Source: Gemmatimonadota bacterium
GTDB lineage: Bacteria > Gemmatimonadota > Gemmatimonadetes > Longimicrobiales > Gaopeijiaceae
DNA: 33,880 nucleotides
Reading direction: 5' to 3'
Assembly (NCBI GenBank): GCA_007126575.1
Contig: SLBA01000056.1
Coordinates: forward strand, 1-33,880
Shown here: positions 3,360-33,803 of the stretch, one piece after another
Layout of the letters: each line of letters starts with the position of its first letter
Numbering within the stretch: position 1 is the stretch's first letter
Program-made: the position numbers and the translations under genes
The notes under the pieces: model-generated
The model's input: only the letters and a program-made list of their open reading frames with translations
What the model was told of the DNA's origin: nothing
Databases searched by the model: none

Positions 3360-3393
3360 CGAAGGACTTCGAACCCAATTGAGGATGACGGAT

Positions 3394-4896: not shown

Positions 4897-4922
4897 TGCC
4901 CACGCTCTACCGGGATTGACCC

Positions 4923-6140
<1,218 letters not shown>

Positions 6141-7226: not shown

Positions 7227-7240
7227 CGGAATCTCCTTCA

Positions 7241-7957
7241 TCAATACCAGTCACGGGTGTACGAGGCCTGGATGCCTCGAAGCGTGGCTTCCCGCTCGGC
7301 GTGCATGTTCACGAGCAGCCCGTTCAGGAAGGGGTCGGCCGGGAGCTCCCGGACCGCGGCCTGGCTGGCGGCCATCAGGGTCTCGAGGGCGGCAAAGCGG
7401 GTGAGGGGGTCCTCGGGAGCGACGCCCCGTTCGACCTCGGCGCGCTCCCGGTATTCCAGAAGGGCCTGCAGGTACCATCGCTCGATGAGCTGGACCAGCT
7501 CCCCTGCCTCTTCGAGCGTGAGCTCCCGGTCGGGGTCGGCCATGGCGGTCAGAATCGACGCAGGCGTCTCCCCCGTGGAGCCCCCGGTCGGGCTCGACGC
7601 CGTCACGGTCGTCCCGAGTGACCCCGGACGATCCCGATCGAAGGGCAGCCACGCGCCGAGTCCGACTCCGGTCACGATCAGCAGGATGGCCGCAGCCGCC
7701 TGCAGCCATGGCCTCGCCGCGAATCCGCTCCCGGCGGGATTGCGCAGGAGTCCCTCGGTCCGCAGGCGGGGCTCCAGGCGGTCCCAGTCTCCGGCGGGAG
7801 GGCGAAGCGGGGGCAGGTGCGAAAGCGCCAGCCGCTGGGTTCGCAGCGCATCGAGCTCCTCGCGGCAGATCCGGCACCGGTTCAGGTGACCCCGCTCCTC
7901 GGTCGAGGGCGACTCGTCGACGAGACGGGCCAGGGCGTCGGGGCTCAGGTGATTCAT
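7241..7957 (-). CDS. Zinc-type membrane anti-sigma factor
   Basis: 238 aa. The N-terminal cytoplasmic part carries His24-x3-Cys28-x2-Cys31 (HLNRCRIC), the zinc-binding anti-sigma (ZAS/zf-HC2) signature. A membrane helix follows at about 86-107 (AAAAILLIVTGVGLGAWL). The ~130-residue periplasmic C-terminal part is largely helical (EEAGELVQLIERWYLQALLEY). The ATG overlaps the stop of the ECF sigma gene by 4 bp (7954-7957), so translation is coupled. It should bind and inhibit that sigma factor until an extracytoplasmic or redox signal releases it. The helical outer domain is the likely sensor. Confidence 0.9.
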   Translation of the reverse strand: MNHLSPDALARLVDESPSTEERGHLNRCRICREELDALRTQRLALSHLPPLRPPAGDWDRLEPRLRTEGLLRNPAGSGFAARPWLQAAAAILLIVTGVGLGAWLPFDRDRPGSLGTTVTASSPTGGSTGETPASILTAMADPDRELTLEEAGELVQLIERWYLQALLEYRERAEVERGVAPEDPLTRFAALETLMAASQAAVRELPADPFLNGLLVNMHAEREATLRGIQASYTRDWY

Positions 7958-8505
7958 GCTTCGGCTCCTTCCTTCGATTCGGTGGTGATCGTACCGCGCA
8001 GCAGCTCTCTCATCCGGCCGCGGGCCTTGAAGAGCTGGGACTTCGAGGTCCCCGGGCTCACGGCCAGCAGTTCGCCGATCTCCTCATGGGTGTATCCTTC
8101 CACATCATGGAGGACGAGCACCTGTCTCATCCGCTCCGGCACCCGGTCCAGCGCCTCGGCGATCCGGTCCTCGAGGAGCACGTCGCGACGTGTGGGGGCC
8201 ACCGAGAGCTCCTCGTGAAGCTCCGATTCGCGGTCGCGTCGAGTCCCCGCCTTCCGCTGCATCTGCAGCGCCTGATTCACTGCGATCCGGTGAATCCAGG
8301 TACCGAACCGGGCGTCGCGTCGAAAGCCCGAGAGCCCCCGAAGGGCATTGATCCAGGCCTCCTGTGCACAGTCCTCGGCCCGATGGTCATCGCCCACGAT
8401 CCGCCGCACGACCGCAAAGACCCTCGGCGCGTGGCGCTCGTAGAGTGTCCGGACCGCCAGGGGGTCGCCCTGCGCGGCACGCTCGATGAGGCGTTGTTCG
8501 GTCAT
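7954..8505 (-). CDS. ECF-subfamily RNA polymerase sigma factor (RpoE-like)
   Basis: 183 aa. Region 2 covers about 10-80 with HRAEDCAQEAWINAL and the -10-binding FRRDARFGTWIHRIAVNQAL. Region 4 covers about 118-168 with the helix-turn-helix YTHEEIGELLAVSPGTSKSQLFKAR. The separating linker is short, as in ECF factors. It heads a leftward operon sigma, anti-sigma (4-bp overlap), PDZ protein. Upstream on the same strand, GGCAACC (8575-8569) and CGTC (8555-8552) resemble an ECF-type promoter, which would suggest autoregulation, but the 14-nt gap between AAC and CGTC is shorter than the usual 16-17 nt. Confidence 0.94.
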   Translation of the reverse strand: MTEQRLIERAAQGDPLAVRTLYERHAPRVFAVVRRIVGDDHRAEDCAQEAWINALRGLSGFRRDARFGTWIHRIAVNQALQMQRKAGTRRDRESELHEELSVAPTRRDVLLEDRIAEALDRVPERMRQVLVLHDVEGYTHEEIGELLAVSPGTSKSQLFKARGRMRELLRGTITTESKEGAEA

Positions 8506-16255: not shown

Positions 16256-18976
16256 CTACGGGTTCAGCCAGTAGTTCAGCTTGACCATCAGGACGTTTTC
16301 GGGACGCGTGCTGAACAGGTCGCCGAAGCCGTCGCCGACCCCGACCGATCCGTCGACACCCTGGTGATCGCGGGCCTGTGACCAGACCACGAAGACCGTC
16401 GACCCCGGTCGGTACTCCCAGCGCAGCACGGCGTTCGAGCGGAACTGCGCGACGCTGAAGTCGGGGTTGCCCAGGGTTTCGGCCTGGCCGTCGCCCGTCA
16501 CGTCTCCGACCATTCGGCTCTGGGCGTCGCGCGAGGTCGCCACGGGGAGAACCCGATCCTCGTAGCGGTCGGCCCGGGGGTCTCCCAGGACCCGCAGCTC
16601 GGGGAAGTGGCCGCTCGAGTGGAAGGGCTGGCCGTAGAGCTGCAGCGAGAGGGTGGGCGAGAGCGCCAGGTCCAGGCGGGCCGTCACCCCCGTGGTCGAC
16701 TGCTCCAGCCGGCCGAACAGGTAGTGCGGGTCGTCGTCTCCTCCCATGCGACCGAGCCACTGCCGGTCCTCGACGCGCCGGTTGTGAAAGGGGCTCAGGC
16801 GGACGGTCGTACGTCCGGACGGACGCCACCGCACGTTGGTCGACACGTTCGCGTTCCACGAATCGCTTTCGGGCCGGACACCCCAGTTGATGTTCGTCCC
16901 GGCCTGCACCGCCCGGCGGCTGTCGCTGTTCACCCCCATCCAGCCGTTGGCGGCCCGCTCGGTGCGCAGCATCGGGCCTCCCCGCAGGAGGGTGGCGGAA
17001 AGGGACGACCCGTTCAGCCCCACGCCCCCGTAGGCATTCCAGTTGTTGTTCAGGGTCAGGTTGCCGTTCACATTCCCGGCCAGGTCGGAGTGCTCCCCCC
17101 CGGTGGTCCAGACCGACCAGAGATTCGTGTTCACTCCCCAGTTGCGCAGGCGTTCGCCCGGCTGCGTCTGCCGGTACCCCAGGAAGCCCGCCTGGGCCAC
17201 GTAGTCGGCTCCGGTCATGAACCCCAGGTCGTTGGCCTCGAAGCCCGGGGTGCGCAGCTGCGTGATGCCCCCGAAGACCCAGGGTCCGCCCCCGACCTTC
17301 ATGACCTCGAGCGAGCCCGAGGCCCCGGTCAGGCTCGTCCGGGTCTCGTCGAGGGTGACATGCTCGGCGTCGGGCCGCTGGAAGTAGCGGGCGGAGGATC
17401 GCTGCGTGCGCAGGATCGACTCCTCGGAGCCCGCTACATGGCTGCCCAGCAGGTATCCGCGGATCTCGATCGTGTTGGAGCGGACGCGGTGGCGAACATC
17501 GACCCCTCCGGTGAAGGCCCGATCCCGCAGCCCGAGCTCCTCGGCCGCGCCGGCGTCTCGCAACGCGGCGGTACCGATCACGCCGACCGCGCTCGAGCCC
17601 CCGCGAAAGTCGCGCTGGACCCGGGCCATCGAGTAGTTCGACAGCGGCTCGACCACCTGCGAGCCCCGGGTGCCGTCGGGGTGTGCGCTGCGGGCCTGCT
17701 CGCTCCCGGTGAGCGCGCTGAGCACCCCGACCGACCATCCGTCCTCGGTCTTTCCCGAGAGCTTTCCGGCCCCCAGGATCCGGGTCTGTCCTGGACGCTC
17801 GACCCAGGCCCCCTGGGGGGAATACGCACCCTGCGGCGAGCGACCGATCCTGCGCGAGTAGAAGAGGGTCTCGTTGCCCCCATCGCCATCCCCGATCCCG
17901 ATTCCGAAGCGGAAGATCCCGGCGCCCTCCAGAAAGAAGGGCCGCTGCTCGGGAAGGAAGGTCTCGAACGCCGTCAGGTTGACCCGGGCCGGATCGGCTT
18001 CGACCTGGCCGAAGTCGGGGTTCAGGGTCAGGTCCAGCGTCATGTTGTTGGTGATCCCGATCTTGAGGTCGGCCCCCGCCTCGATTCCGGTATCGGTGCG
18101 ACTGAAGAAGGGGTTGGCGGGGTCCCCCGGGGCGCGCGTCACGCGGCTGACGGTGTAGGGGAGCAGCTCGACCCGGCGGCCCCCGGCCAGCGCGGTCAGC
18201 CCCCGCAGCTCGCCGGAGCGCGAGACGATCGCCTGCTCCTGGGGCGAGAGGGGGGCCCACGTCGAAATCTCGCTCCTGCGGGCGATCTCGCGGGCGAAGT
18301 TCAGTCCCCACGTCTGCTCGGCCGCGCTCGAGAAGCGGAGCTGCGAGAGCGGGATTCGGAACTCCGCGGTCCAGCCCTCGTCATCGATCCGGGTGGCCAC
18401 GTCCCACACCGCGGTCCACCCCGTGTCCTCGGCGTTGTCGTTGTATCGGTACAGGTCCATCTTGACCCCGAGAGGGTTGACCGAGAACTGGAAGGCGGTG
18501 CGGCGGTCATGGTACGAATCGATGATCAGGTGCACCTGGTCGGAGTACGACCGCTCCCCCCGCCGCGTCAGCTGGGCCGCGATCAGCTCGGGATTGCGGT
18601 CCCACGCCCGGATCGCCACGTAGAGGGCCTCGTCGTCGTAGAGGATGCGCGCCTCGGTCTCTTCCGATGCGGGCTCCCCGGGCGAGGGCTCGAACTGCGT
18701 GAAGTTGCGCGCCACCGGTGCGTTGGCCCAGGCCGGATCGCTCAGGTCCCCATCGATGGTCGGAGCCGCACCCTGCACCCGGACCGCGGGAAGCGAGGGG
18801 ACCGAACCCGCGCGAATCGAATCCCGTTGGCCGTTGTCAACCGGGCGATCCTGGCCATGCAGGGGCAGGGTGAGCAGCATCATGGCCACGGTCAGGACGA
18901 GGGCATGGCCGCACAGCCAGGCTGCGGAGCTCGAAGGTGCGGCGTCGGGGGCCTGCGTGTCGGATCGGATCATCAT
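16256..18976 (-). CDS. DUF5916 outer-membrane protein with CBM9-like N-terminus
   Basis: 906 aa. A signal peptide (about 20-42, ending LPLHGQ) precedes a family-9 carbohydrate-binding-like beta-sandwich (about 73-235, TIDGDLSDPAWANAPVARNF and DDEALYVAIRAWD). The long DUF5916 region follows (about 245-906) with its conserved DLTLNPDFGQVEADPARVNLTAFETFLPEQRPFFLEG segment and barrel-like strands to the C-terminal KLNYWL. The family is common in Bacteroidota, Gemmatimonadota and other FCB bacteria and is usually linked to surface polymer handling. Its exact activity is unproven. GAGAGG (18984-18979) precedes two adjacent ATGs, 18976 and 18973; the second has better spacing. A 6-bp-arm palindrome lies at 18993-19007 just upstream. 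Confidence 0.92.
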   Translation of the reverse strand: MMIRSDTQAPDAAPSSSAAWLCGHALVLTVAMMLLTLPLHGQDRPVDNGQRDSIRAGSVPSLPAVRVQGAAPTIDGDLSDPAWANAPVARNFTQFEPSPGEPASEETEARILYDDEALYVAIRAWDRNPELIAAQLTRRGERSYSDQVHLIIDSYHDRRTAFQFSVNPLGVKMDLYRYNDNAEDTGWTAVWDVATRIDDEGWTAEFRIPLSQLRFSSAAEQTWGLNFAREIARRSEISTWAPLSPQEQAIVSRSGELRGLTALAGGRRVELLPYTVSRVTRAPGDPANPFFSRTDTGIEAGADLKIGITNNMTLDLTLNPDFGQVEADPARVNLTAFETFLPEQRPFFLEGAGIFRFGIGIGDGDGGNETLFYSRRIGRSPQGAYSPQGAWVERPGQTRILGAGKLSGKTEDGWSVGVLSALTGSEQARSAHPDGTRGSQVVEPLSNYSMARVQRDFRGGSSAVGVIGTAALRDAGAAEELGLRDRAFTGGVDVRHRVRSNTIEIRGYLLGSHVAGSEESILRTQRSSARYFQRPDAEHVTLDETRTSLTGASGSLEVMKVGGGPWVFGGITQLRTPGFEANDLGFMTGADYVAQAGFLGYRQTQPGERLRNWGVNTNLWSVWTTGGEHSDLAGNVNGNLTLNNNWNAYGGVGLNGSSLSATLLRGGPMLRTERAANGWMGVNSDSRRAVQAGTNINWGVRPESDSWNANVSTNVRWRPSGRTTVRLSPFHNRRVEDRQWLGRMGGDDDPHYLFGRLEQSTTGVTARLDLALSPTLSLQLYGQPFHSSGHFPELRVLGDPRADRYEDRVLPVATSRDAQSRMVGDVTGDGQAETLGNPDFSVAQFRSNAVLRWEYRPGSTVFVVWSQARDHQGVDGSVGVGDGFGDLFSTRPENVLMVKLNYWLNP

Positions 18977-20115: not shown

Positions 20116-21201
20116 TCAGGTACGCACGCGCATCGTGAGGATGAGACCTGCGGCCAGGAAGAGCCCGTTGGGTAGCCAGGCGGCCACCATCGGGTCGATT
20201 GCCCCGGCGTAGCCCGCCGCCCCGAAGACGCGAAAGAGCACCAGGTAGAGGATCGTGGTGCCCAGCGAGACCCCGATCCCGAAGGCCGCGCCCCCTCGTT
20301 TCGACGAGGTGGCGAGGGGAGCCCCGAACAGGATGATCACCATCGTCGCGATCGGAATCGCCAGGCGCTGCTCGCGTTTGACCTCGATTCGACCCACGTC
20401 GCCCCCTGATCGACTCACCCGCTCCGAGAGCGCGGCCAGCTCGGCCCGGGTCATCTCGTCTTCGTCGAGCACGGTCTGCACGATCTGGCCGGGATCCTCC
20501 TGCAGCGATTCCCAGGCGAGCGTCTCGAAGCGCTCGAGCGTTTCGGAGCCGTCGGAGTGGAGCTCCCGCCGGTAGCCGTCTCGGAAGACCCAGTGGGGCG
20601 CGGTGTCGCCCTCCTCGTTCCATACGCCCTGCTGCGCGGTGATGTGGAGGGCCGGCTCGCCGTTCTCGCCCTCCTCGCGAACCAGGACCACCCCCTGCAT
20701 CTGCCCATCGGCCACCCGCAGCGAACGGGCCATCAGGGACTCTCCGCTGTCGGTCAGATACACGAACTGGCTGCGCCACCCCTGCCGGCGCTCTCGATCC
20801 TCGCGCAGCTCGGCCGAGGCCTGGTTGGCGCGGGGAACGATCTCGGCGATCGCGAGCCCCGCCCCGGTGAACAGGAGCCCCAGCACGTAGAGGGGCACCG
20901 TGAGCCGGTGGAAGGAGATGCCTCCGGCCTTGGCCGCCATGACCTCCCGGTGGACCGTCATCGGCTGGATCGTGAAGACCGTGGCCAGCAGTGCGGCGAT
21001 CGGCAGCGACCAGAAGACGAACTGAGGGTACTGGTAGGCGTACGAAAGGAGCACCTGTCCCAGGGGGAGCCCGCGGTCCAGGTATCGATCCAGGTTCTCG
21101 GTCGCGTCGCCCAGGATGAACAGAAGGGGAGCGCCGAGCACGAACAGGAGAAAGAGCTTCAGAAAGGTGCGGGCCACCAGTCGGTCGAGGATGCGGATCA
21201 T
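20116..21201 (-). CDS. lptG: LptF/LptG-family LPS export permease (second of pair)
   Basis: 361 aa from ATG 21201, which overlaps the upstream gene's stop in ATGA (21198-21201); the open frame extends further upstream but inside the neighbouring gene. It has three N-terminal membrane helices (about 12-30, 55-75, 98-118), a central periplasmic beta-jellyroll domain, and three C-terminal helices (about 275-355). AAKAGGISFHRL is the cytoplasmic coupling helix typical of YjgP/YjgQ proteins. With LptF, LptB and LptC it extracts lipopolysaccharide from the inner membrane and passes it to the periplasmic bridge. F and G assignments are by gene order only. This pair supports an LPS-bearing outer membrane. 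Confidence 0.9.
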   Translation of the reverse strand: MIRILDRLVARTFLKLFLLFVLGAPLLFILGDATENLDRYLDRGLPLGQVLLSYAYQYPQFVFWSLPIAALLATVFTIQPMTVHREVMAAKAGGISFHRLTVPLYVLGLLFTGAGLAIAEIVPRANQASAELREDRERRQGWRSQFVYLTDSGESLMARSLRVADGQMQGVVLVREEGENGEPALHITAQQGVWNEEGDTAPHWVFRDGYRRELHSDGSETLERFETLAWESLQEDPGQIVQTVLDEDEMTRAELAALSERVSRSGGDVGRIEVKREQRLAIPIATMVIILFGAPLATSSKRGGAAFGIGVSLGTTILYLVLFRVFGAAGYAGAIDPMVAAWLPNGLFLAAGLILTMRVRT

Positions 21202-22634
21202 CGGCCGCCCCCGACCGCCGGGCCCGGGGCGGACTCCACCGCCCCCCGGCGATTCAGCGGATCCCGGAGCCAGCCTCGCACCCCGTCGAAGGCCCCGCTC
21301 CGGTTCGAGGTCCCCTGACGCCCCATTCGCCAGGCCATCCAGAGTCCCGGTGTGAAGAGGATCAGGTTCGGCAGCCACATGGCGATCACGGGGTTCAGGT
21401 GCCCCCGCACGGCCAGCCGCTCCCCGCCGATCAGCCCGACCCAGTATAGAAAGAAGATGCCCGCCGACATCGCGATCACCATCCCCACCCCTCCCTGGGG
21501 GAATCGCGCGGCGAAGGGGCCCCCCAGAAGGATGAAGATCAGGCAGGCGAAGGCGATCGCGTACTTCTTGTGGATCTCGACCTGAAAACGGTAGATCGAG
21601 AGGGCGTGGACGTTCCAGCGATTCTCGGTGATCTGAAGGGTGCTGCGCGTTTCGGCGATCTCGCCGTCCTGCACCATGCCACCCGGTTCGACGACGGCGG
21701 GAGAGAGGAGTTCGGTCTCCTCGCCGTCATCGCTGTGGTCGAGCCCGAGCGCCGTCTCGACGGTCCGCCGCGAGATCTGCCGGCTCTCTTCGCCGAGGCT
21801 CCTGAGGTTCGCCATCCCCTCGGCGACGCGCTCCTCGAGCATCGGGATCGTCAGTTCGCGTGCCCCGCGGCCGCCCCCGGCAGTCCGACGCTCGAGCTCC
21901 GTGCCCACCCCGCGAAAGGGGATCACCTGACGCTCGAAGTCCATCCGCTGAAAGCCCCCGGGGCGTTCCTCGGTGGTCTCGAAGACGGTGCCGTCCGCGA
22001 GGAGGACGTAGAGGTCCATCCGGTCCTCGGTGAAGGCCATCTCTCCGTGGTCGGCGACGATCACCCGGTTGTCTCCGGGGCGGCTCATGTCGTAGATCGT
22101 CACATCGACCATGGTGTTCGAGGCCTGGTCGATGGAGCGGGCTTTCAGGAAGTAGCGGGTATTGTCACCGGTGTGGACCTCGTTGATCACCTGCTCGCGC
22201 AGTTCGAGCGTCGGGCTCTTGCTTCCGACGTCACTCATGAGGGAACTTAGGCGATGGTTGGACTCGGGGAGCACCTGGGCGTTGAAGTAGAACATCATGA
22301 CCGTCAGCCCGACCCCGATCACGAGCATGGGGGCGAGAAGACGGGTGGGTCGGATCCCGCCCGCGGCCATGGCGGTGATCTCGTTTTGAGCCGTCATCTC
22401 GGAAAAGGTGTAGAGGACCGCCACGAGCACGGCCATCGGAAAGGTGAGGGCCACGATATGGGGGAGCGACAGGAGCATGAACTCCCCGAAGACCTCGGGG
22501 CCCAGGCCCTTGCCGACGAGGTCGCTGAGCCGCTGCGCCACGGCATTCAGGAAGAGAAGCCCGGTGACCGCGATGAATGCGAAGAGGAAGGGCCCGATGT
22601 GGGCCTTGATCACGTAGCGGGTGAGAATCGTCAT
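21198..22634 (-). CDS. lptF: LptF/LptG-family LPS export permease (first of pair)
   Basis: 478 aa from ATG 22634; the open frame upstream contains only Pro/Arg-rich sequence not expected in the family. Membrane helices (about 14-35, 55-75, 100-122) open the protein with the motif SEMTAQNEITAMAAGGIRPTRLL, the coupling helix. The periplasmic domain is enlarged (about 125-375, against ~150-180 residues in E. coli LptF) by a charged helical insertion around 260-340. Three more helices close the fold (AIAFACLIFILLGGPFA onward). A ~45-residue basic Gly/Pro-rich tail follows. It is the first gene of the leftward lptF-lptG pair and diverges from sprA. Confidence 0.9.
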   Translation of the reverse strand: MTILTRYVIKAHIGPFLFAFIAVTGLLFLNAVAQRLSDLVGKGLGPEVFGEFMLLSLPHIVALTFPMAVLVAVLYTFSEMTAQNEITAMAAGGIRPTRLLAPMLVIGVGLTVMMFYFNAQVLPESNHRLSSLMSDVGSKSPTLELREQVINEVHTGDNTRYFLKARSIDQASNTMVDVTIYDMSRPGDNRVIVADHGEMAFTEDRMDLYVLLADGTVFETTEERPGGFQRMDFERQVIPFRGVGTELERRTAGGGRGARELTIPMLEERVAEGMANLRSLGEESRQISRRTVETALGLDHSDDGEETELLSPAVVEPGGMVQDGEIAETRSTLQITENRWNVHALSIYRFQVEIHKKYAIAFACLIFILLGGPFAARFPQGGVGMVIAMSAGIFFLYWVGLIGGERLAVRGHLNPVIAMWLPNLILFTPGLWMAWRMGRQGTSNRSGAFDGVRGWLRDPLNRRGAVESAPGPAVGGGR

Positions 22635-22680
22635 GCCATCGGGGTTCGGTCGATTCGGGTCGGTGCGGGCCGGTTGATTC

Positions 22681-22699
22681 GTACGCGTTCGTTGCGTAC
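22681..22699. promoter_or_regulatory. Palindrome in the lptF/sprA divergent region
   Basis: GTACGC (22681-22686) and GCGTAC (22694-22699) are perfect 6-bp arms around 7 nt, in the 165-bp gap between the divergent lptF and sprA starts. Such a site could bind a dimeric regulator of both units. No promoter hexamers are convincing nearby. Confidence 0.3.
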
Positions 22700-22799
22700 C
22701 TGCGGGGCGGAGCGACACACTCACTTCTCAAGCCGAAATCATACCCGGAACGCCTGACACGGGTCCTTCGAGTCCTTCAGCCCTGGAGCCGGACCGAGC

Positions 22800-25700
22800 A
22801 TGCGAGCTCTGAAGCCCTTCCTCGCCGCCATTCTGGCGGGCGTCGCCCTGTCGGGGTGGGCGACCGAGGTTCGGGCTCAGGGGGCACCGGAGCGGGGGGT
22901 TGAGCGGGCGGCGTCCAGCGCGGACACGCTCCCGGGCGTCGATACGCTCCGGCTCGTGGACTCCCTGCTCGCGACGCCCCTCTTCGCCGCTCGCGACACC
23001 CTGCCCGCGCCCAGTCGGATCTCGCCTCTCGAGGATCTGGCGATCCGCCTGAGGGGGCGAGGGGAGTTCGGGGGCGACTGGAGCCGCTTCCGACCCTGCG
23101 ACGCCTCGTTCCAGCTCACCTGCAACCCGGGGCTGATCCCCCAGCTCCAGCCCGACTTCCAGTTCAGCCTCGAGGTCGGGGGCTCGGTGGCGGACCGCTT
23201 CTTCCTCGATGTGGACTACGACCAGACCCGCGAGTTCGGGGGTGCCAACCGATTCCAGGCATACTACGAAGGGCAGGAGGGGGAGACGATCCAGCGGGTT
23301 GAGCTGGGCGACATCACCTTCGCGCTCCCCGACACCCGCTTCCTGACGCGCGGAATCCCGGCCGGCAACTTCGGGCTCCTGGCGAGCGGCGAGGCGGGGG
23401 GCATGACCTTCCAGTCGGTGGTCGCACAGCAGCAGGGGAGTCGACAGCGTCGCGAGTTCCGGCTGGGACGGGGCGACGAGGGAGTGATCCGCGAGGACAC
23501 CCTGGTCGTCGATGACGCCGAGTACGTGCGGGGACAGTTCTTCTTCATCCTCGACCCCCGCGAGTTCAGCGACTATCCGCACCTCGACATCCTGGGGCTG
23601 CGGCCGGGCGACGCGCCCTCGCGGCTCGCTCCGGGGCCGGCCCCGATTCAGCTCTGGCGCATGGAGCGTGAGCCGGTCGTGCGACAGCAGGTCCAGGGCT
23701 ACATCCGGGCCGACGCCGAGCTGGGGGGAGTCAGCGAGCCCCTCGTGCGTGAGTCCGGCTGGTTCCGGCATCTGCGCCCCGGCACGGACTACTACGTGCA
23801 CCCCTCGGGCCTCTGGGTCGCGCTGCGCGTCCCCCTGGGTCCGAACGAGGCGCTCGGGGTCACCTACATCACCATGCAGGGCGACACGATCGGCGACTAC
23901 AACCCCGAGCGGATCCAGAACGAGGGGGGCGTTCCCCGGCTCGGGCTCCTGCGGCCCACCGAGTCGCGGCACCAGCCCGACCGTGCGGGATGGGAGCTCG
24001 AGATGCGGCAGATCTACCGGCTTTCGGGCTCCGACGAGGTCGATCTCGAGACCCTCGACCTGTCGATCTCGCTGGGCGAGGAGAGCGCCGGCCGCACCTT
24101 CGTGAACCGGCCCGGTGCCGAGCGCCTCTCCCTCCTCCGACTCTTCGGGCTCGACGAGTCCGCGCCCTTCGAGGGAGTCGACCGCAGCGCGCTCTTCCAG
24201 CCCGCTTCGCAGACCTTCGGCGAGACCGGGCTGAGCGGGACCTTCCTGGTCTTTCCCACCCTGCGCCCCTTCCTGGAGCCGCCCCCGGTTCCGTCGGAGG
24301 GGCTCTCGGCCGATCAGACCCGCGCGCTTCTCGGGGAGGACGGGAATCGGCGCATCTACCGCTCCGCGGATCCCTTCGAGCGGCGGTCCGGAGGGCTCTA
24401 TCGGCTGAACGTCGAGCTCAGCTCCCAGAGCTCCGGGGTCGCCTCGACCTTCTCGCTCGGGGCCTTCGGGATCCGCGAGGGGAGCGAGCGGCTGTACCTG
24501 GGCGATCGGCTCCTGCGCCCGGGCACCGACTACCTGCTCGACCCCGAGATCGGGGTCGTGACCCTGCTCCAGCCCGAATTCCTCCTGGCCCGCAGCTCCT
24601 CCGACCGGCTCCAGATCAGCTGGGAGCAGCTGAGCCTCTTTCGCCCACGCCCCACCACCCTCGTCGGGGGGAGCGCCGCGGTACCCGTGGCCGAGGCGGG
24701 CGAGCTGACCTTCCTGGGTCTCTACCAGGCCGAGCGCGAGATCCTGAACCGACCCCGCTTCGGGTCCGAACCCGTCGCCGCGGGAATGGTCGGGGTCGGG
24801 ACCCAGCTCGAGTGGGGCCTGCCGGGGGTCGAGACCTTTCTGGCCCGCTACCTGGGCGGCGATCCCGAGGCGTCCGGGGCCGAGGCGAGCCTCCGGGTCG
24901 AGGGGGAGTTCGCCGTGTCGCTTCCCAACCCCAACGTGTCGGGCGCCGCGTACCTCGACGACTTCGACTCCGGCGACGAACGCACCGTCTCGCTCCTTTC
25001 GACCGGATGGCACCTGGGGAGTCGGCCCGCGGACCGGACGGGAGCCACGCAACGCCTCCCCGAGACGCTCGATGTGCCGTCGGCCACCTCGCTCGTCTGG
25101 CAGCACACCTGGGTCGAGACGAGTCCGCTGGGAGACTCGACCGGGGTCTTCGAAGGGCTCTTCCCCCGCTCCGACATCGACCAGGAGATCAATGTCGCCG
25201 GAAGCCAGACGCGGGAGCCCGGACTTCATCTCACCTTCGGAGGGCCTCCCGGAACCAGCTTCGAGGACCCGCGATGGCGCTCGATCACCACCCTGATCTC
25301 GAGTACGGGAGCCGACCTGACGCAGACGGAGTTCCTGGATTTCTACGTGGCCGACGGGGATTCGGCGACGCTGATCCTCGACCTGGGGATGGTGAGCGAG
25401 GACGCGTACTTCATCGACGCCGGGGGACGGACCACGGGGATCCATCCCGAGACGGGGCGCCCGTGGGGGCAGGGGGTGCTCGACCAGGAGGCCGACCCGC
25501 TGCGCGGCGAGATCTGGAACCGGGAGCTGGACCGGATCGGGATGTGGCCCGAGGAGTGCCTGGGGGAGCCCGGGCGGGTCTATCCGAGGGGAGACCCCAC
25601 CGCAAACTGCCTGCGGGGCAACGGGCGGCGCGACACCGAGGACCTGAACGGGAACGGGGTGCTCGACACCGAGGAGCGCTACGCCCGGTACGTGGTGCGT

Positions 25701-28700
25701 CTGGATGGAAGCTCGCCGTATCTCGTTCGGGATCGGGCGCAGACGGGCACGGGCTTTCGCCTGTATCGGATTCCCCTGCGCGGCCCCCAGACCGTCTACC
25801 CTTCGGGAGAGCTCACTCAGGCCGACTGGCGGTCGGTCCAGTTCCTGCGCATGACGGTGACCGGCACCCGCTCGTCGCGCATGACCCTGGCGCGCATGCG
25901 GCTCGTGGGTTCGCGCTGGGTGAAGCGGAGCGTCGATGGGATCCTGCGCGGGGTCGGAGGCGACACCCTGGCGATCGGGGGAAGCTTCGAGGTCACGCCC
26001 GTGGGGGTGCTCACCGAGGGGTCCGCGTACCAGGCGCCTCCCGGGGTGCTCGAGCGGCTCGACGATCCGACTTCGGCGGTGGCCGGACGGGGGGTCGAGT
26101 TCTCGGAGCGCTCGCTCGCCCTGCGCTTCGAGGATCTGGGGGTCGGGGATCGCGTCGAGGTCTATTCGCGCTTTCTCCAGCGGCCGCGGGACTTCCTCTC
26201 CTACGGGCACCTTCGGCTCTGGACCGCGACCCGGCGGGGGGACTGGACGGGGGGGGACCCGCCCGACGTCTTCCTGAAGGTGGGCAGCGATCCCGAGAAT
26301 TTCTATCTGTGGAGGTCTCCCCTGGCGCCCGAACGGGATCCGGGGGGCGTCACCCCCGAGGACTGGGTGCCCGAAGCGATCATCGACTTCGACACCTGGA
26401 TCACGTTGAGGCGGCGGGCCGAGGAGCGGCTCATCCGTGAGGGCGGGCTGGTTCGGGAGGGGCCGATCGTGGAGTGGAATGCCGACTCGACGCACGCGGT
26501 GGTGCTCAGGGACCGGGCACGGGCGCCGAACCTGGCGGCGGTGCGCGAGATCTCGCTCGGGGTGTGGAATCGGACGGGCGCGCCGGTGCGCGGAGAGGCG
26601 TGGGTGAACGAGCTGCGGCTGGGTGGGGGCGTCCGGACGGCGGGGACGGCACGCTACCTGACCATGGAGTTCGACGGGGGGGATCTCCTCCAGGCGCGAA
26701 TCGGCTACGAGGGGACCTCGCCCTGGTTCCAGAACATGGAGACGCGCCCCGACTACCGGGAAGAAAACGCCCTGAACCTGTCGGGGTCGGTCCAGCTCGG
26801 GGGGGCGCTGCCCGAGGAATGGGCGGTCGACCTGCCGCTGACGGTGTCGCATCATCGGTCGGGCTCGGACCCGCTCTTCCTGCAGGGGACCGATCTGGAG
26901 GCCGGGCGGCTTCTGGGGCTGCGCACGGGGGCGGCGCGTGATACCCGGGCGTCGCTCACCCTGCGGACCGACGCCACCACCGGGCTTGCGACCCTCGATC
27001 GGGCGCTGGCGGGCCTCGAGGGCCGGCTTGGCCTGAGCCGATCGTACGGGCGGACGCTGAGCTCCGAGTCGCAGTCGACCGGGGTCGAGACGGGGGTGGC
27101 CTTCCAGCTGCGGCCCCTGCCGCGCAGGACCGACGTGGTGCCCGAGTTCCTTGAGCCGCTGGTGCGGATCCTGTTGCCCCCGGGGCTTGCGCGACGGCTG
27201 AACGATGCCGAATTCCAGTGGAGCCCCGAGGAGCTGAGGGTGGGCAGCACCCTGCGTCGGAGATCCTTCGAGGTCACCCGCTTCGAGCAGATCATCGACC
27301 AGGGGACGCTGGACCCCGGCTCGCGGGCCCGGGCTCCCGAGTCGTGGCTCGACACGCGGGCGCGGGTCGCCTTCCGGCCGGGGGGAACGATGACGGCCTC
27401 GATGGAACTCAACTCCGAGCGGGACCTCCTCGATCCCGAAACGGGGGTGCTCGACCCCCGGGTGCGTCCCCTGGTCGAAGCGGTGCGGCGCGAGATCGCG
27501 GGGATCGGGCTGGGGTGGGAGACCCGGCGGAGCCTGCTGGTGCGGGCGGGAGCGCGGCCCGAGATCCTGCCCGGGGTGGTGACCGATCTGAGCGTGCTGA
27601 ACCGCTACGGGACCGACCGGAACGCCCGCCTGGTGCGGCTCGGGATGATCACCGACGAGGGGGGCATGCCGGGGACCGGGCTCGAGGGATCGGGGATCGA
27701 GGGGATCTCGGTCGCGGCGGGCGCGGTGGGGGACTCCGCCCTCCTGCGCAACGTCCGGGTGGAGAGGGAGCTTCGGGGAGCCGTCACGATGGACCCGGCC
27801 CGGGTCGTGCCCGTCGAGGCGCTCGACGTGGTGATCTCGCGCCTGAGCCCGCTGAACCTGACCCTGCAGAGCGGGCTCGTCTCGGGGTACTTCCGCGAGG
27901 ACGTGGATCCGGGGCTGGGGCTGCAGCTGGGGTTCGGGCGGGCGGGGAGCTTTCGCGAGATCGACGAGGTCCGGGCGTCGACCCTGGTGGATCGTCGCTC
28001 GGTGGGGGCGGGGACCGGGGTGCGGCTCCCGTCGGCCTTTTTCATCAACCTGAACCTGCAGGACACCCGGATCCGGGCCCTCGACCAGCGCTCGGAGCGC
28101 GAGGCCCGGACTCGCAGCTGGCCCGACCTGCGGGTCGGCTCCTCGGATGTGCCGGTCCCGGGGGCGTGGGATGGGGTGCTCGAGCGCGTCTCCTTCACCT
28201 CGGGGCTGCAGAGGGTGCGCGAGAGGGTGGACTTCGGAGAGGGCCTGCAGGAGCGGGAGCGCACCGATGTGCGGATCCCGGCCGAGATCACCCTCCAGTG
28301 GGCCGGCGGGTTGACCGCACGGCTGCGGGGGACGGTGGTCGAGGGGGACGGCCGCGATCCGACAGGTGCGACGGAGCGATCGAACCGCGAGGCGGGTGTC
28401 TCGATCGAGACGCGACTGCGTCCCCGGGGGGGCCTCGAGGCGCGCTTCGATGCCCCCTTCCGACTCTCGATCGTGGGGCAGTATTCGTCGCAGGACGAGT
28501 GCCGGACGCCGTCGGGGCAGGAGGAGTGCGTGCCCTTCCTGGACCAGGTCAACCGGAGCCTCGGGCTCAGCATGGACACCATGGTCTCAGGCTTCGAGGT
28601 GGGGGGGCAGGCGTCGCTGATCGATCGGCGCTCCTTCACCGGCTTCGAGAGCGGGTACACCCAGCTGCAGCTCGGGATCTGGGGGCGGATGGAGTTCAGC

Positions 28701-28754
28701 GCGGGGCCGGTGGGGCGGCTGGACCGGGGGGATCCGGACCCCTTCGGGGGCTGA
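22800..28754 (+). CDS. sprA: SprA-like giant outer-membrane protein (type IX secretion translocon family)
   Basis: 1984 aa with a signal peptide (cleavage after about residue 26, VRA-Q). Two SprA-N-type modules are marked by GTDYYVHPSGLWVAL (from 328) and GTDYLLDPEIGVVTLLQPEFL (from 575). Next are the landmark AAYLDDFDSGDE (716-727) and a Ca-binding-loop-like DLNGNGVLDTEE (948-959) within TEDLNGNGVLDTEERY, which resembles SprA sequences. The rest is strand-rich and ends in a barrel-like segment. In Bacteroidota, SprA (~2400 aa) is the 36-strand outer-membrane channel of the type IX secretion system and gliding machinery. This protein is shorter by about 400 residues. I find six cysteines in three close pairs (100/108, 920/937, 1901/1910). 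Neighbours are LptF/G and ComEA/pilus genes; no porV, gldK-N or T9SS-sorting C-terminus is in the window. Confidence 0.88.
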   Translation: MRALKPFLAAILAGVALSGWATEVRAQGAPERGVERAASSADTLPGVDTLRLVDSLLATPLFAARDTLPAPSRISPLEDLAIRLRGRGEFGGDWSRFRPCDASFQLTCNPGLIPQLQPDFQFSLEVGGSVADRFFLDVDYDQTREFGGANRFQAYYEGQEGETIQRVELGDITFALPDTRFLTRGIPAGNFGLLASGEAGGMTFQSVVAQQQGSRQRREFRLGRGDEGVIREDTLVVDDAEYVRGQFFFILDPREFSDYPHLDILGLRPGDAPSRLAPGPAPIQLWRMEREPVVRQQVQGYIRADAELGGVSEPLVRESGWFRHLRPGTDYYVHPSGLWVALRVPLGPNEALGVTYITMQGDTIGDYNPERIQNEGGVPRLGLLRPTESRHQPDRAGWELEMRQIYRLSGSDEVDLETLDLSISLGEESAGRTFVNRPGAERLSLLRLFGLDESAPFEGVDRSALFQPASQTFGETGLSGTFLVFPTLRPFLEPPPVPSEGLSADQTRALLGEDGNRRIYRSADPFERRSGGLYRLNVELSSQSSGVASTFSLGAFGIREGSERLYLGDRLLRPGTDYLLDPEIGVVTLLQPEFLLARSSSDRLQISWEQLSLFRPRPTTLVGGSAAVPVAEAGELTFLGLYQAEREILNRPRFGSEPVAAGMVGVGTQLEWGLPGVETFLARYLGGDPEASGAEASLRVEGEFAVSLPNPNVSGAAYLDDFDSGDERTVSLLSTGWHLGSRPADRTGATQRLPETLDVPSATSLVWQHTWVETSPLGDSTGVFEGLFPRSDIDQEINVAGSQTREPGLHLTFGGPPGTSFEDPRWRSITTLISSTGADLTQTEFLDFYVADGDSATLILDLGMVSEDAYFIDAGGRTTGIHPETGRPWGQGVLDQEADPLRGEIWNRELDRIGMWPEECLGEPGRVYPRGDPTANCLRGNGRRDTEDLNGNGVLDTEERYARYVVRLDGSSPYLVRDRAQTGTGFRLYRIPLRGPQTVYPSGELTQADWRSVQFLRMTVTGTRSSRMTLARMRLVGSRWVKRSVDGILRGVGGDTLAIGGSFEVTPVGVLTEGSAYQAPPGVLERLDDPTSAVAGRGVEFSERSLALRFEDLGVGDRVEVYSRFLQRPRDFLSYGHLRLWTATRRGDWTGGDPPDVFLKVGSDPENFYLWRSPLAPERDPGGVTPEDWVPEAIIDFDTWITLRRRAEERLIREGGLVREGPIVEWNADSTHAVVLRDRARAPNLAAVREISLGVWNRTGAPVRGEAWVNELRLGGGVRTAGTARYLTMEFDGGDLLQARIGYEGTSPWFQNMETRPDYREENALNLSGSVQLGGALPEEWAVDLPLTVSHHRSGSDPLFLQGTDLEAGRLLGLRTGAARDTRASLTLRTDATTGLATLDRALAGLEGRLGLSRSYGRTLSSESQSTGVETGVAFQLRPLPRRTDVVPEFLEPLVRILLPPGLARRLNDAEFQWSPEELRVGSTLRRRSFEVTRFEQIIDQGTLDPGSRARAPESWLDTRARVAFRPGGTMTASMELNSERDLLDPETGVLDPRVRPLVEAVRREIAGIGLGWETRRSLLVRAGARPEILPGVVTDLSVLNRYGTDRNARLVRLGMITDEGGMPGTGLEGSGIEGISVAAGAVGDSALLRNVRVERELRGAVTMDPARVVPVEALDVVISRLSPLNLTLQSGLVSGYFREDVDPGLGLQLGFGRAGSFREIDEVRASTLVDRRSVGAGTGVRLPSAFFINLNLQDTRIRALDQRSEREARTRSWPDLRVGSSDVPVPGAWDGVLERVSFTSGLQRVRERVDFGEGLQERERTDVRIPAEITLQWAGGLTARLRGTVVEGDGRDPTGATERSNREAGVSIETRLRPRGGLEARFDAPFRLSIVGQYSSQDECRTPSGQEECVPFLDQVNRSLGLSMDTMVSGFEVGGQASLIDRRSFTGFESGYTQLQLGIWGRMEFSAGPVGRLDRGDPDPFGG

Positions 28755-28882
28755 GCGGGGAGGCCTGGCTCGGGCTAGCCAAGGCGTGGCGCTTCGGGTC
28801 GCGGCCTCCGCATGAGGCCTGCCCAACGCGGCGCCCCAGGCTGCCATGGCCCCGCCCCCGCGTGGCGCCCTTCTTTACCGGC

Positions 28883-29515
28883 ATGACCGAAGACGAACGT
28901 CGCGCCGCGCTCTGGGCTGCCGCCTTTCTCCTGCTCGCATCGCTCGTGCGGCTGGGCTGGGAGATGCGGCCTGTCGATCCTCTCCTCACCGCCGACACCA
29001 CCGCGTATGCCGAGCTGATCGAGGAGACCCGCGCGGCGGTCGAGGATCAGGAGCGGCGTCAGGTTCCCCTGGCGCCAGGGGAGCGGATCGATCCCAACCG
29101 CGCCCCCGAGGTGGAGCTGGCCCGGCTCCCCGGGGTGGGGCCGGCGCTCGCGTCGCGGATCGCGGCCGCCCGGCGTGCGGCCCCCTTCCAGCGGAGTGAA
29201 GACCTCCTCGATGTGCCGGGGGTCGGAGCGGGGACGCTGGCTCGGCTGGCCGAATATCTCGATCTCGACGATCCGCCTCCGCCCTCGGCCGGCACGGGGG
29301 TCGGAGGGGGCGAGGCGGACCGGGTGGCCGTGAATCGGGTGGGGGCCGCGGAGCTGCAGGCACTGCCCGGGATCGGGCCCGCCCTGGCGGAGCGGATCGT
29401 GGCGGACCGCGCCCTTCACGGCGCATTCGATGTGCCCGAAGATCTGCTCCGGGTGCCGGGGATCGGCCCATCGACGCTCGAGGCGATTCTGCCCCTGGTG
29501 AGCTTCGCCCGCTGA
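28883..29515 (+). CDS. comEA: ComEA-like membrane-anchored protein with two helix-hairpin-helix domains
   Basis: 210 aa from ATG 28883 (GTG 28862 possible; no clear ribosome-binding site). A signal-anchor (residues 9-25, ALWAAAFLLLASLVRLG) leads to a periplasmic part with two copies of the ComEA helix-hairpin-helix unit. Copy 1 is at about 69-126 (IDPNRAPEVELARLPGVGPALASRI, VPGVGAGTL). Copy 2 is at about 148-207 (VNRVGAAELQALPGIGPALAERI, VPGIGPSTL). They are separated by a Pro/Gly linker. ComEA binds double-stranded DNA in the periplasm and pulls it in during transformation. Most ComEA proteins have a single unit, so the duplication is notable. Its place just before pilB-pilT-pilC, the motors of uptake pili, fits a competence role. 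Confidence 0.85.
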   Translation: MTEDERRAALWAAAFLLLASLVRLGWEMRPVDPLLTADTTAYAELIEETRAAVEDQERRQVPLAPGERIDPNRAPEVELARLPGVGPALASRIAAARRAAPFQRSEDLLDVPGVGAGTLARLAEYLDLDDPPPPSAGTGVGGGEADRVAVNRVGAAELQALPGIGPALAERIVADRALHGAFDVPEDLLRVPGIGPSTLEAILPLVSFAR

Positions 29516-29557
29516 GCTCGGGGCCCGGCCGTGGTGAGCCTGCCTTGCAAAGCTTGC

Positions 29558-29587
29558 TTGACCCCGCACGAGGCCGGGGCCTACTTT
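29558..29587 (+). promoter_or_regulatory. Possible sigma-70-type promoter of pilB-pilT-pilC
   Basis: TTGACC (29558-29563) and TACTTT (29582-29587) are separated by 18 bp in an AT-richer pocket about 100 bp upstream of pilB. The -35 match is good and the -10 is partial. It would start the pil operon independently of comEA. Confidence 0.35.
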
Positions 29588-29689
29588 CACGGTAGACTGC
29601 GTGGACGCCCACACCCCGCATTTTCAAGTGCGCGCCCGTGGATGCCCGTAGCCCTTCGCCACCTCCGAATCAGGACTCAACGCTTCCCC

Positions 29690-31408
29690 ATGAGCACACG
29701 GCTCGCCCAGGACCGCCTCGGAGACCTGTTGCTTCGCGAGGGTCTCATCTCCCAGGAGCAGCTGCAGAAGGCCCTTTCCGAGGCCCGGACGGGGGGGACC
29801 CGTCTGGGTTCGGCACTCGTGAAGCTCGGCTTCCTCGGAGAGGAGGAGCTCACGCGGATGCTCGCCCGATACTACCGGGTGCCTGCAGTGGACCTCAACC
29901 GGGTCGAGGTGGACCCGAAGATCATTCGCCTGGTCCCGGGTGAGGTCGCGCTCAAGCACCTGGTGCTCCCCCTTCGCCGCGTCGGACGCACGCTCACGGT
30001 GGCGATGGTCAACCCGACCGACCTGGGGGCGATCGACGACCTGAAGTTCGTGACCCGCTTCGAGATCGACCCGGTGGTGGTCGGCGAGGTCACCCTTCGC
30101 CAGCACCTCGAGCAGTACTACGACGGCACCGAAGACCGGATGACCGAGATCCTCTCGGATCTGTTCGACGAAGCCGACGTCGAGGTGGTCGAGGATGACG
30201 AGGAGGAGGTCTCGGTCGCGGCGCTCCGTGAGCAGGTCGACGCGGCGCCGGTCGTCCGCTTCATCAACGGGCTGTTGACCGACGCCGTCAACAAGGGGGT
30301 CTCCGACATCCACATCGAGCCCTTCGAAAAGGAGATCCGGGTGCGCTACCGGATCGACGGGGCGCTGCAGGAGGTCATGAAACCACCGTACAAGATGAAG
30401 GCCGCATTGACCTCCCGGATCAAGATTCTGGCCGACCTGAACATCGCCGAGCGCCGGGTCCCCCAGGACGGACGGATCAAGCTGCGGATGCGCAAGAAGG
30501 TCGTGGACTTCCGCGTGTCGACGCTGCCCGTGATCTTCGGCGAAAAGATCGTGCTGCGGATCCTGGACAAGGGGAACCTCACCTTCGATCTCCTGAAGTT
30601 CGGCTTCGAGCCCAAGGCCGAAAAGGACTTCATGGAGGCGATCGCCCAGCCCTACGGAATGGTTCTGGTGACCGGGCCGACGGGGTCCGGCAAGACGACG
30701 ACGCTCTACTCGGCCCTTTCGAAGATCAACACCGAAGAGGTCAACATCATGACGGCCGAGGATCCGGTGGAGTACAACCTGCACGGGATCAACCAGGTCC
30801 TGGTGCGCACCGAGATCGGCATGTCGTTCGCGAACGCCCTGCGCGCCTTCCTGCGGCAGGACCCGAACATCATCATGGTCGGTGAGATCCGGGACCTCGA
30901 GACGGGCGGGATCTCGATCAAGGCGGCGCTGACGGGCCACCTGGTCCTTTCTACGCTGCATACCAATGATGCCCCCTCGACGGTGACGCGTCTGATCGAC
31001 ATGGGGCTGGAGCCCTTCAACGTGGCCTCGGCGCTGACCCTCGTCACCGCACAGCGGCTGGTCCGACGAATCTGCACCGACTGCAAGGCCGAGACGACGT
31101 ATCCCGAGGCGTACCTCGAGGCGGCCCGGATCCCCCGGGACTTCGCGAAGGGGACGACCTTCTACAAGGGGAAGGGCTGCGATCGCTGCAGCGGCTCGGG
31201 TTATCGTGGCCGTCAGGGCCTCTATGAAGTGATGGCGATCGGCTCCCGGCTGCGGAAGCTGATCATGGCCGAGGCGGGGACCGATGCCCTGCGTGAGACC
31301 GCGATCGAAGAGGGCATGCTGACATTGAGGATGGATGGCCTCAAGAAGGTCTCGGCGGGAATCACGACGCTCGAAGAGGTCATCAAGGAGACGGCCGAGG
31401 TCCAATGA
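29690..31408 (+). CDS. pilB: Type IV pilus assembly ATPase PilB
   Basis: 572 aa from ATG 29690; in-frame ATG 29642 would add a basic leader not typical of the family. The N-terminal MshEN/T2SSE-N domain (LGDLLLREGLISQEQLQKAL onward) binds nucleotides such as c-di-GMP in many PilB proteins. The motor domain has Walker A GPTGSGKTT starting at 329, the Asp box region, Walker B IIMVGEIRD (394-402) and the His box TGHLVLSTLHTND. The zinc tetracysteine is present (Cys462, Cys465, Cys497, Cys500). It drives pilin polymerisation at the inner-membrane platform PilC. It is the first gene of a pilB-pilT-pilC run with gaps of 39 and 46 bp. Confidence 0.96.
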   Translation: MSTRLAQDRLGDLLLREGLISQEQLQKALSEARTGGTRLGSALVKLGFLGEEELTRMLARYYRVPAVDLNRVEVDPKIIRLVPGEVALKHLVLPLRRVGRTLTVAMVNPTDLGAIDDLKFVTRFEIDPVVVGEVTLRQHLEQYYDGTEDRMTEILSDLFDEADVEVVEDDEEEVSVAALREQVDAAPVVRFINGLLTDAVNKGVSDIHIEPFEKEIRVRYRIDGALQEVMKPPYKMKAALTSRIKILADLNIAERRVPQDGRIKLRMRKKVVDFRVSTLPVIFGEKIVLRILDKGNLTFDLLKFGFEPKAEKDFMEAIAQPYGMVLVTGPTGSGKTTTLYSALSKINTEEVNIMTAEDPVEYNLHGINQVLVRTEIGMSFANALRAFLRQDPNIIMVGEIRDLETGGISIKAALTGHLVLSTLHTNDAPSTVTRLIDMGLEPFNVASALTLVTAQRLVRRICTDCKAETTYPEAYLEAARIPRDFAKGTTFYKGKGCDRCSGSGYRGRQGLYEVMAIGSRLRKLIMAEAGTDALRETAIEEGMLTLRMDGLKKVSAGITTLEEVIKETAEVQ

Positions 31409-31447: not shown

Positions 31448-32557
31448 ATGGCACCCCCTGAAGCCCCCTCCGCCGGCCGCGAAGAGGTCAACATCCGAGC
31501 GCTTCTCGAAGAGATGATCGCCAGGGGAGCGTCCGACCTGCACCTGACGGTGGGAGAGAAGCCGAAGATCCGGATCGACGGTCGGCTCATCGATACCGAA
31601 GGTGGTCGGGAGTTGGCACCCAAGGATACCTTGACCCTGGCCTACTCGATCCTGACCGAACAGCAGAAGAAGCGGTTCGAGACCGATGATGAGCTCGACT
31701 TCTCGTTCGGGATCCAGAATCTCTCGCGTTTCCGCGGAAACTGCTACAAGCAGCGGGGATGCATCGGGATGGCGCTCCGGCAGATCCCGTACGAGATCCA
31801 CGGCCTCGACGCCCTCGGCCTGCCTCCGGTGCTGAAGAAGCTCGCCGAGAGGCCGCGGGGGCTGATCCTGGTCACCGGGCCCACGGGCTCCGGAAAGTCC
31901 ACCACGCTGGCCGCGATGGTCGACAAGATCAACCGGGAGCGCGAGGGGCACATCCTGACGGTCGAGGACCCGATCGAGTTCCTGCATCACCACAAGGGCT
32001 GCACGGTCAATCAGCGCGAGGTGGGCACCGACACGCGGTCGTTCGCCCGGGCCCTGAAGTACGCGCTTCGCCAGGACCCCGATGTGATCCTGGTCGGAGA
32101 GATGCGTGACCTGGAGACGATGCAGGCGGCGCTCACGATCGCCGAGACCGGCCACCTGGTGCTTGCCACCCTGCACACGAATTCGGCGGCGGAGTCGATC
32201 AACCGGATCATCGACGCCTTTCCGTCTCACCAGCAGTCGCAGATCCGGGCCCAGCTCTCGTTCGTGCTCGAGGGAGTGGTCACGCAGACGCTGATTCCCC
32301 GGTCTCGGGGGACCGGCCGGGTGGTCGCGTCCGAGGTGATGCTCTGTACCTCGGCGATCCGGGCGCTGATCCGCGACGAGAAGATCCACCAGATCTACTC
32401 GCTGCTCCAGGCCGGAAAGAAGCATGGGATGCAGACGATGAACGACAGCCTGCAGCAGCTGGTGCTGCAGCGGGAGATCAAGCTCGAGGATGCGCTCCGG
32501 GTGTCCCAGGATCCCAAGGAGTTGCTGCGGGCCCTGGGCGAGCCGGTGCCGGGATGA
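31448..32557 (+). CDS. pilT: Type IV pilus retraction ATPase PilT
   Basis: 369 aa. An N-terminal PAS-like domain with ASDLHLTVG precedes the RecA-like motor: Walker A GPTGSGKST (144-152), Walker B DVILVGEMRD, and the His box TGHLVLATLHTNS. The C-terminal AIRALIRDEK (from 303) is the PilT-specific AIRNLIRE motif required for retraction, which separates it from PilB and PilU. No zinc tetracysteine. It depolymerises the pilus to power twitching and DNA uptake. It lies between pilB and pilC, an arrangement seen in several phyla. Confidence 0.96.
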   Translation: MAPPEAPSAGREEVNIRALLEEMIARGASDLHLTVGEKPKIRIDGRLIDTEGGRELAPKDTLTLAYSILTEQQKKRFETDDELDFSFGIQNLSRFRGNCYKQRGCIGMALRQIPYEIHGLDALGLPPVLKKLAERPRGLILVTGPTGSGKSTTLAAMVDKINREREGHILTVEDPIEFLHHHKGCTVNQREVGTDTRSFARALKYALRQDPDVILVGEMRDLETMQAALTIAETGHLVLATLHTNSAAESINRIIDAFPSHQQSQIRAQLSFVLEGVVTQTLIPRSRGTGRVVASEVMLCTSAIRALIRDEKIHQIYSLLQAGKKHGMQTMNDSLQQLVLQREIKLEDALRVSQDPKELLRALGEPVPG

Positions 32558-32603: not shown

Positions 32604-33803
32604 ATGCCGAAATTTACCTATAGCGCGCGACCGGCCACCGGGGGCGAGATCCGATCCGGTGAGGTGGATCTCAAGACGAAAGAGGAGGTGATGGATCACC
32701 TTCGTCGTCAGAAGCTGATTCCGGTGTCGGTGCGCGAGAAGCCGAAGGAGTTCTCGCTCACGTTCGGGTCGGGGGTGAAGACCCGTGAAATCGTGATCTT
32801 CACGCGGCAGTTCGCGACGATGATCAACGCCGGGCTCCCCCTGGTGCAGAGCCTCGACATCCTGGCCGAGCAGACCGAGAATGCCCAGCTGCAGAAGGTG
32901 ATCCGCGATGTCCTCTACGACGTGGAGTCCGGAAACACCCTGGCCGACGCGATGGGTAAACACCCCAAGGTCTTCTCGAAGCTCTTCGTGAGCATGGTCT
33001 CGGCGGGCGAAGCCGGTGGTATTCTCGATACGATCCTTCTGCGCCTGGCGACCTTCCTCGAGAAGGCCGATGCGCTCTCTCGGAAGGTGAAGGGCGCCAT
33101 GGTCTATCCGGGCGTGGTCTTCACGGTGGCGGCCGGTGCGGTCGCGATTCTGCTCATTTTCGTGATCCCGACCTTCCAGGACATGTTCGCGGCGGCCGGG
33201 GTGGCGCTGCCCCTTCCCACCCAGGTCGTGATCGCGATGTCGGCGTTCCTGCAGGCCTACTGGTGGGCGATCATCGCGGTGGCGGTGGGGGCCTTCTTCG
33301 CCTTTCGAGCGTACTATGCGACCGACAACGGGGAGCTTGTCGTCGACCGGATCCTGCTGAATATCCCGGTCCTGGGAGACCTGCAGCGCAAGGCCGCGGT
33401 CGCCCGCTTCACACGCACCCTGGGGACGCTGGTCTCGTCCGGTGTCGCGATCCTCGAGGGACTCGAGATCACGGCCAAGACGGCCGGTAACCGGGTCATC
33501 CAGGACGCGGTGATGAACTCCCGGAGTTCCATCGCGGGGGGTGACACGATCTCGGGCCCCCTGAAGGAGTCGAAGGCGTTTCCTCCGATGGTCGTGCAGA
33601 TGATCAATGTCGGCGAACAGACGGGTGGTCTCGACGAGATGCTCGAGAAGATCGCGGACTTCTACGACGACGAGGTGGACAACGCCGTTACTGCGCTGCT
33701 CTCGGTGATGGAGCCGATCATGATCGTGGTGCTGGGGGTCGTGGTGGGGGGCATGATCGTGGCGATGTATCTGCCGATCTTCGATATGGTGGGGGCGGTC
33801 TAG
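32604..33803 (+). CDS. pilC: Type IV pilus inner-membrane platform protein PilC
   Basis: 399 aa with GGGGGA 8 nt before ATG 32604. The N-terminus (FTYSARPATGGEIRSGEVD) is the conserved GspF/PilC opening. Two T2SSF domains follow (about 65-190 and 270-390), each with the helical bundle and a conserved block (FTRQFATMINAGLPLVQSL; FTRTLGTLVSSGVAILEGL). Membrane helices lie at about 170-195, 215-235 and 370-395. PilC couples the PilB and PilT motors to the growing fibre. The ending MYLPIFDMVGAV is typical. No pilin, prepilin peptidase or PilM-Q gene is inside the window; they may lie beyond its right edge. Confidence 0.96.
   Translation: MPKFTYSARPATGGEIRSGEVDLKTKEEVMDHLRRQKLIPVSVREKPKEFSLTFGSGVKTREIVIFTRQFATMINAGLPLVQSLDILAEQTENAQLQKVIRDVLYDVESGNTLADAMGKHPKVFSKLFVSMVSAGEAGGILDTILLRLATFLEKADALSRKVKGAMVYPGVVFTVAAGAVAILLIFVIPTFQDMFAAAGVALPLPTQVVIAMSAFLQAYWWAIIAVAVGAFFAFRAYYATDNGELVVDRILLNIPVLGDLQRKAAVARFTRTLGTLVSSGVAILEGLEITAKTAGNRVIQDAVMNSRSSIAGGDTISGPLKESKAFPPMVVQMINVGEQTGGLDEMLEKIADFYDDEVDNAVTALLSVMEPIMIVVLGVVVGGMIVAMYLPIFDMVGAV

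Follow-up and report, generated by a model that had tools for sequence, protein, structure and literature searches.

Our data suggest, with a probability of roughly 0.6, that SprA is an ancestral gene of the Gemmatimonadota and serves there as the translocon of a reduced type IX secretion system, one without the GldKLMN ring and motor. The gene examined here lies at 22800..28754 on the + strand of the window, the 33,880-nucleotide stretch of 68% GC that was analysed, which belongs to a 3.68 Mb genome of this phylum (G000), and it encodes a protein of 1984 aa with a hydrophobic, signal-like N-terminal segment. Its reading frame starts with ATG and has no internal stops, and in DNA of such composition the GC content at codon positions 1, 2 and 3 (0.72, 0.51 and 0.90) is as expected of a real gene.

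The product is an orthologue of SprA/Sov, the giant outer-membrane beta-barrel of Bacteroidota type IX secretion, through whose side proteins leave while attached to a PorV-type carrier. It matches the NCBIfam equivalog TIGR04189 (SprA/Sov) over the whole protein with 410 bits (cut-off 200, E=2e-122) and the Pfam profile SprA_N (PF14349) with 57 bits (cut-off 27, E=1.9e-15) at aa 945-1359, that is 25632..26876 (+). When the PDB was searched with phmmer, the sole matches were to Flavobacterium johnsoniae SprA (6h3i/6h3j), in three collinear stretches (E=2.8e-25). These results bear out the original prediction, which had named the protein SprA from short motifs and proposed the SprA_N profile as a check. 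The motifs themselves are where they had been placed, GTDY at 328 and 575 and AAYLDDFDSGDE at 716-727, and TEDLNGNGVLDTEERY, noted around 948, is found at 946-961. Full-length relatives share 52 to 23% identity with the window protein, which is about 400 residues shorter than F. johnsoniae SprA and shows 11-16% identity to it in structural alignments.

Two overlapping parts of the protein were modelled with AlphaFold from 30 sequences of the window and its relatives. The model of aa 950-1984 reached a mean pLDDT of 82.8 (pTM 0.67) and that of aa 79-1010 a mean pLDDT of 71.0 (pTM 0.47). In Foldseek searches the four SprA entries took the first four places for each part, with best E values of 1e-27 and 4e-35 for the two halves. 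Other barrels followed at a wide distance, the best match outside SprA having E 1e-5 and 8e-3. A VIA comparison with 8gl8 gave Z 20.9 and an rmsd of 14.8 over 817 residues; the TM-scores, 0.24-0.39 by query length, are low, no surprise for models of half a barrel. The C-terminal model contains about 27 long strands, and the initial part of the N-terminal model adds about 9. A 36-strand barrel had been anticipated: the best match of both halves to SprA structures agrees with a giant barrel of that kind, while the strand count in the two half models is compatible with 36 and proves neither that number nor closure.

Other type IX parts, candidate partners of this translocon, occur in the phylum. 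The PorV family is present in 52 of 57 genomes and is clear in families f2, f4, f5 and f9, the last belonging to another class than the window's family, f1. Each f9 genome yields 12-25 matches to the PorV family and 25-35 to sorting domains. The family also has a full-length PorU, C25 domain included, whose gene adjoins one of the PorV family, the arrangement of the type A pair in Flavobacterium. Full-length PorU was found in f9 only and not in the window's class, where classical sorting domains are near zero as well. Found in this class instead are large proteins (about 1260-1460 aa) in which no Pfam profile exceeds its cut-off. At their C-terminus lies a divergent sorting domain, whose relationship to the classical C-terminal domains (CTDs) of type A has a probability of 96%. 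The divergent CTD occurs in f2, f4, f5, f6, f7 and f8 and in genus g5 of f1. A profile of the divergent CTD has strong matches (E < 1e-20) in 42 of 150 genomes, all 42 of them SprA-positive (P=2e-8 for the co-occurrence, uncorrected for kinship); among the f7 genomes listed, the only one with a strong match, G149, is also SprA-positive. In 63 of 66 cases, a list compiled by hand from the matches listed, a PorV-family gene follows the large CTD gene on the same strand, 136-325 bp past the matched domain. We infer from this that SprA exports the large CTD proteins. The idea that they are themselves divergent PorU proteins was not upheld, the C25 domain not being found in them.

This organization resembles two known ones and coincides with neither. 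It differs from the type A PorV/PorU pair in that no full PorU was found in the window's class and the large CTD genes there have their own downstream PorV-family gene. There is one carrier to one cargo, as in the type B SprB-SprF system, where SprB has a carrier of its own (PMC12635249, PMC10994853); however, the Gemmatimonadota carrier belongs to the PorV/PorQ family, and its cargo has a CTD similar to type A. Two observations on the carriers may be added. The PorV-family expansion in f9 was seen in genomes G001, G003, G005, G007 and G009, with most copies paired with a CTD protein of about 1100 aa. At locus L195 (G069:C1:1338500-1350000), in a closed genome, a PorV-family gene lies in a stretch with a computed GC content of 0.39, a value that could stem from masked N bases or mark an island of low GC.

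The window's own genome holds fewer of these parts. It has one PorV-family gene, a borderline case (89-90 bits; cut-off 90) located next to housekeeping genes; the divergent-CTD profile found no large CTD protein there, and PorU has no match. The only sorting-domain candidate is a small secreted protein of 150 aa with a CTD-like end (YPNPFNP-type) at G000:C110:3091-3681 (-), locus L221, near recO. Of 150 genomes from the phylum, 117 contain relatives of it, mostly in single copy. It is weak evidence for a cargo because it is so widespread, lies near recO and persists in about 18 genomes that lack SprA, and its candidacy as a SprA-specific cargo was not upheld. Since the set in this genome is thin (SprA, the borderline PorV-like gene and the small protein), a near stand-alone role is possible there. 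The original prediction had left open the choice between a divergent type IX system and a stand-alone exporter; at the level of the phylum, with PorV-family, PorU and CTD proteins in relatives and GldKLMN missing, the evidence points mostly to the former.

The known ring and motor proteins were found in no Gemmatimonadota genome searched. GldN and GldL gave no match in 36 Gemmatimonadota genomes each, and GldM_1st none above cut-off in 54, with a single sub-cut-off match in G010; Flavobacterium controls were positive in all three cases. The GldM profile TIGR03517, searched without a positive control, found nothing in 150 genomes. GldK exceeded its cut-off in the Flavobacterium controls only and had no match at all in G000. 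None of the Gld partners turned up near the gene, as had been noted, or in the rest of its genome. Neither the GldL/GldM motor nor the GldK/GldN ring, both criteria of type IX secretion, was found. SprA without GldKLMN may exist in some Rhodothermia as well.

How could SprA work in such a setting? We propose that cargo carrying a sorting domain at its C-terminus, once exported by Sec, would pass into the SprA pore and bind a PorV-type carrier docked at the lateral opening, after which the cargo-carrier complex would exit sideways from the barrel. A dedicated carrier for each cargo, or another energy source, may take the place of the motor; one carrier per cargo could spare the recycling of a shared carrier. 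In F. johnsoniae the CTD of the cargo is bound by loops of PorV within SprA, and removing the complex of the two takes energy and requires the motor (PMC10994853). By analogy, the Gemmatimonadota parts would fit the binding half of this cycle, and the release half would be left with no known motor. Because cargo-carrier release in F. johnsoniae depends on the motor, one would expect a system lacking it to stall, unless it had a substitute. A tentative version, which we consider possible though by no means favoured, is that the system has no GldLM motor at all, that each cargo is made with its own PorV-type carrier and that the complexes need no forced extraction to leave SprA. Such a system may represent the ancestral state, from before Bacteroidota gained the rotary motor.

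The main rival to the motorless reading is a replaced or diverged motor. The type IX system would then be complete, with a motor too diverged for Bacteroidota profiles, such as an ExbBD/MotAB-like or other ion-driven unit, and possibly with an FGE-sulfatase-fold protein acting as GldK. The energy requirement of release in F. johnsoniae speaks for this, as does the nature of the searches: the Gld negatives rest on Bacteroidota profiles, and all controls were Flavobacterium, close to the profile seeds. The f9 genomes, moreover, have 16-27 sub-threshold matches each to the GldK profile, mostly in one part of it; however, matches to this profile occur in Bacillus and Methanosarcina controls too. 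GldL, GldM and GldN yielded nothing at E 0.01 but the one sub-cut-off match, although profiles for SprA, PorU, PorV and the CTD, likewise built on Bacteroidota, work in this phylum. We therefore regard a diverged motor as rather unlikely, and a reduced system without GldKLMN as the preferred reading.

The surroundings of the gene raise another alternative. Divergent from sprA lie two genes for LptF/LptG family permeases, the adjacent one at 21201..22724 (-) (PF03739, 280 bits) and a second, also a conserved neighbour, at 20119..21378 (-) (PF03739, 239 bits). Directly after sprA comes a ComEA-like gene with two helix-hairpin-helix units at 28823..29515 (+; start codon approximate; HHH_3, E=4e-32), which the original prediction had left unnamed. 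It is followed on the + strand by a PilB-type ATPase at 29531..31408, assigned from homology to PilT, with which it clusters, and from position, the PilT retraction ATPase at 31448..32557 (TIGR01420, 492 bits) and the inner-membrane pilus protein PilC at 32604..33803 (NF052606, 516 bits; TIGR02120, 401 bits; both below cut-offs, the family being clear). The permeases, PilT and PilC are thus the neighbours that had been described. Location beside lptFG, comEA and pilBTC, together with the missing GldKLMN, sets this gene apart from Bacteroidota sprA. An LptF/LptG-type gene adjoins sprA in all 20 loci compared (f1, f2, f4, f5, f6, f8 and f9), and the block of lptF/lptG divergent from sprA and then the ComEA-like gene is kept from f1 to f9, f5 included, with an M28 peptidase gene inserted before the latter in some families; pilB-pilT-pilC lies downstream in most of the window's class. 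The adjacency of sprA and comEA is thereby conserved across two classes of the phylum.

In the window's family SprA may have been reused, either as an outer-membrane conduit for unrecognised cargo or in a pilus or DNA-uptake job tied to comEA and pilBTC. SprA is kept in 29 of the 35 f1 genomes listed, and a strong large CTD cargo occurs in that family only in genus g5, which, with the sprA-comEA adjacency in both classes, would suit such reuse. Gene order alone, however, shows no shared function, and in other parts of the phylum the pairing of CTD and PorV-family genes speaks for a role in export; we judge reuse improbable, more so than a diverged motor. A particular form of it, SprA as a substitute for the pilus secretin, is rejected: SprA does not stand in for a missing secretin in G058, because a normal pilMNO-pilQ cluster with a PilQ-type secretin is present there. 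We return to SprA as the translocon of a reduced type IX system.

The history of the gene is clearer. SprA is found in 106 of 150 sampled Gemmatimonadota genomes and 57 of 75 genera, at the same locus wherever the locus was read. In the tree, Gemmatimonadota SprA splits from Flavobacterium with 100% support, f1, f2, f5 and f9 each form one group, and f1 groups with f2. Because the tree follows families and the lptFG and sprA-comEA order is conserved, sprA is an old gene from the ancestor of the sampled phylum, inherited vertically with losses. The setting outside Bacteroidota that had drawn attention to it is therefore real, though not unusual in Gemmatimonadota, about 70% of the sampled genomes having SprA. 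Contamination or recent transfer from Bacteroidota can be dismissed as the source of sprA, in spite of such a contamination within the window's genus, given the conserved locus with the same neighbours, the high GC3 and the agreement of the tree with host families, closed genomes included. The contamination in question is contig C226 of G116, which has 41% GC, against 68% for the window, and encodes three classical type A sorting-domain proteins; it is probably a contaminant of that assembly, and its CTD matches were rejected as host genes.

The type IX system has been described as specific to (PMC7463736) or confined to (PMC7906972) Bacteroidetes, and a survey of 2016 found none outside them (PMC4793230), while another account places it in the FCB superphylum (PMC11205867). 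One report gives the sorting domain TIGR04183 as restricted to members of the FCB group (PMC4737851), and the mere occurrence of CTDs outside Bacteroidota is therefore no novelty. We found no description of SprA in Gemmatimonadota in the largely open-access literature searched; automatic annotation with the NCBIfam equivalog presumably gives such proteins the name SprA already. With the SprA lineage ancestral in another phylum, and there without a known rotary motor, the translocon's own energy need could be tested in cultured Gemmatimonas. The cargo-carrier gene pairs offer a route to substrates through gene order.

Some further features of the window deserve mention. A DUF5916 protein with a CBM9-like domain is encoded at 16259-18976 (-), and its family recurs near lptFG-sprA in several f1 genomes. 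At 2583-6137 (+) an ABC ATPase, an HlyD-type adaptor and a MacB-type permease stand in a row as a MacAB-like exporter. The stretch 6144-8505 (-) encodes, in one run, an ECF sigma factor, an anti-sigma-like protein and a further protein in which two stretches are PDZ-like.
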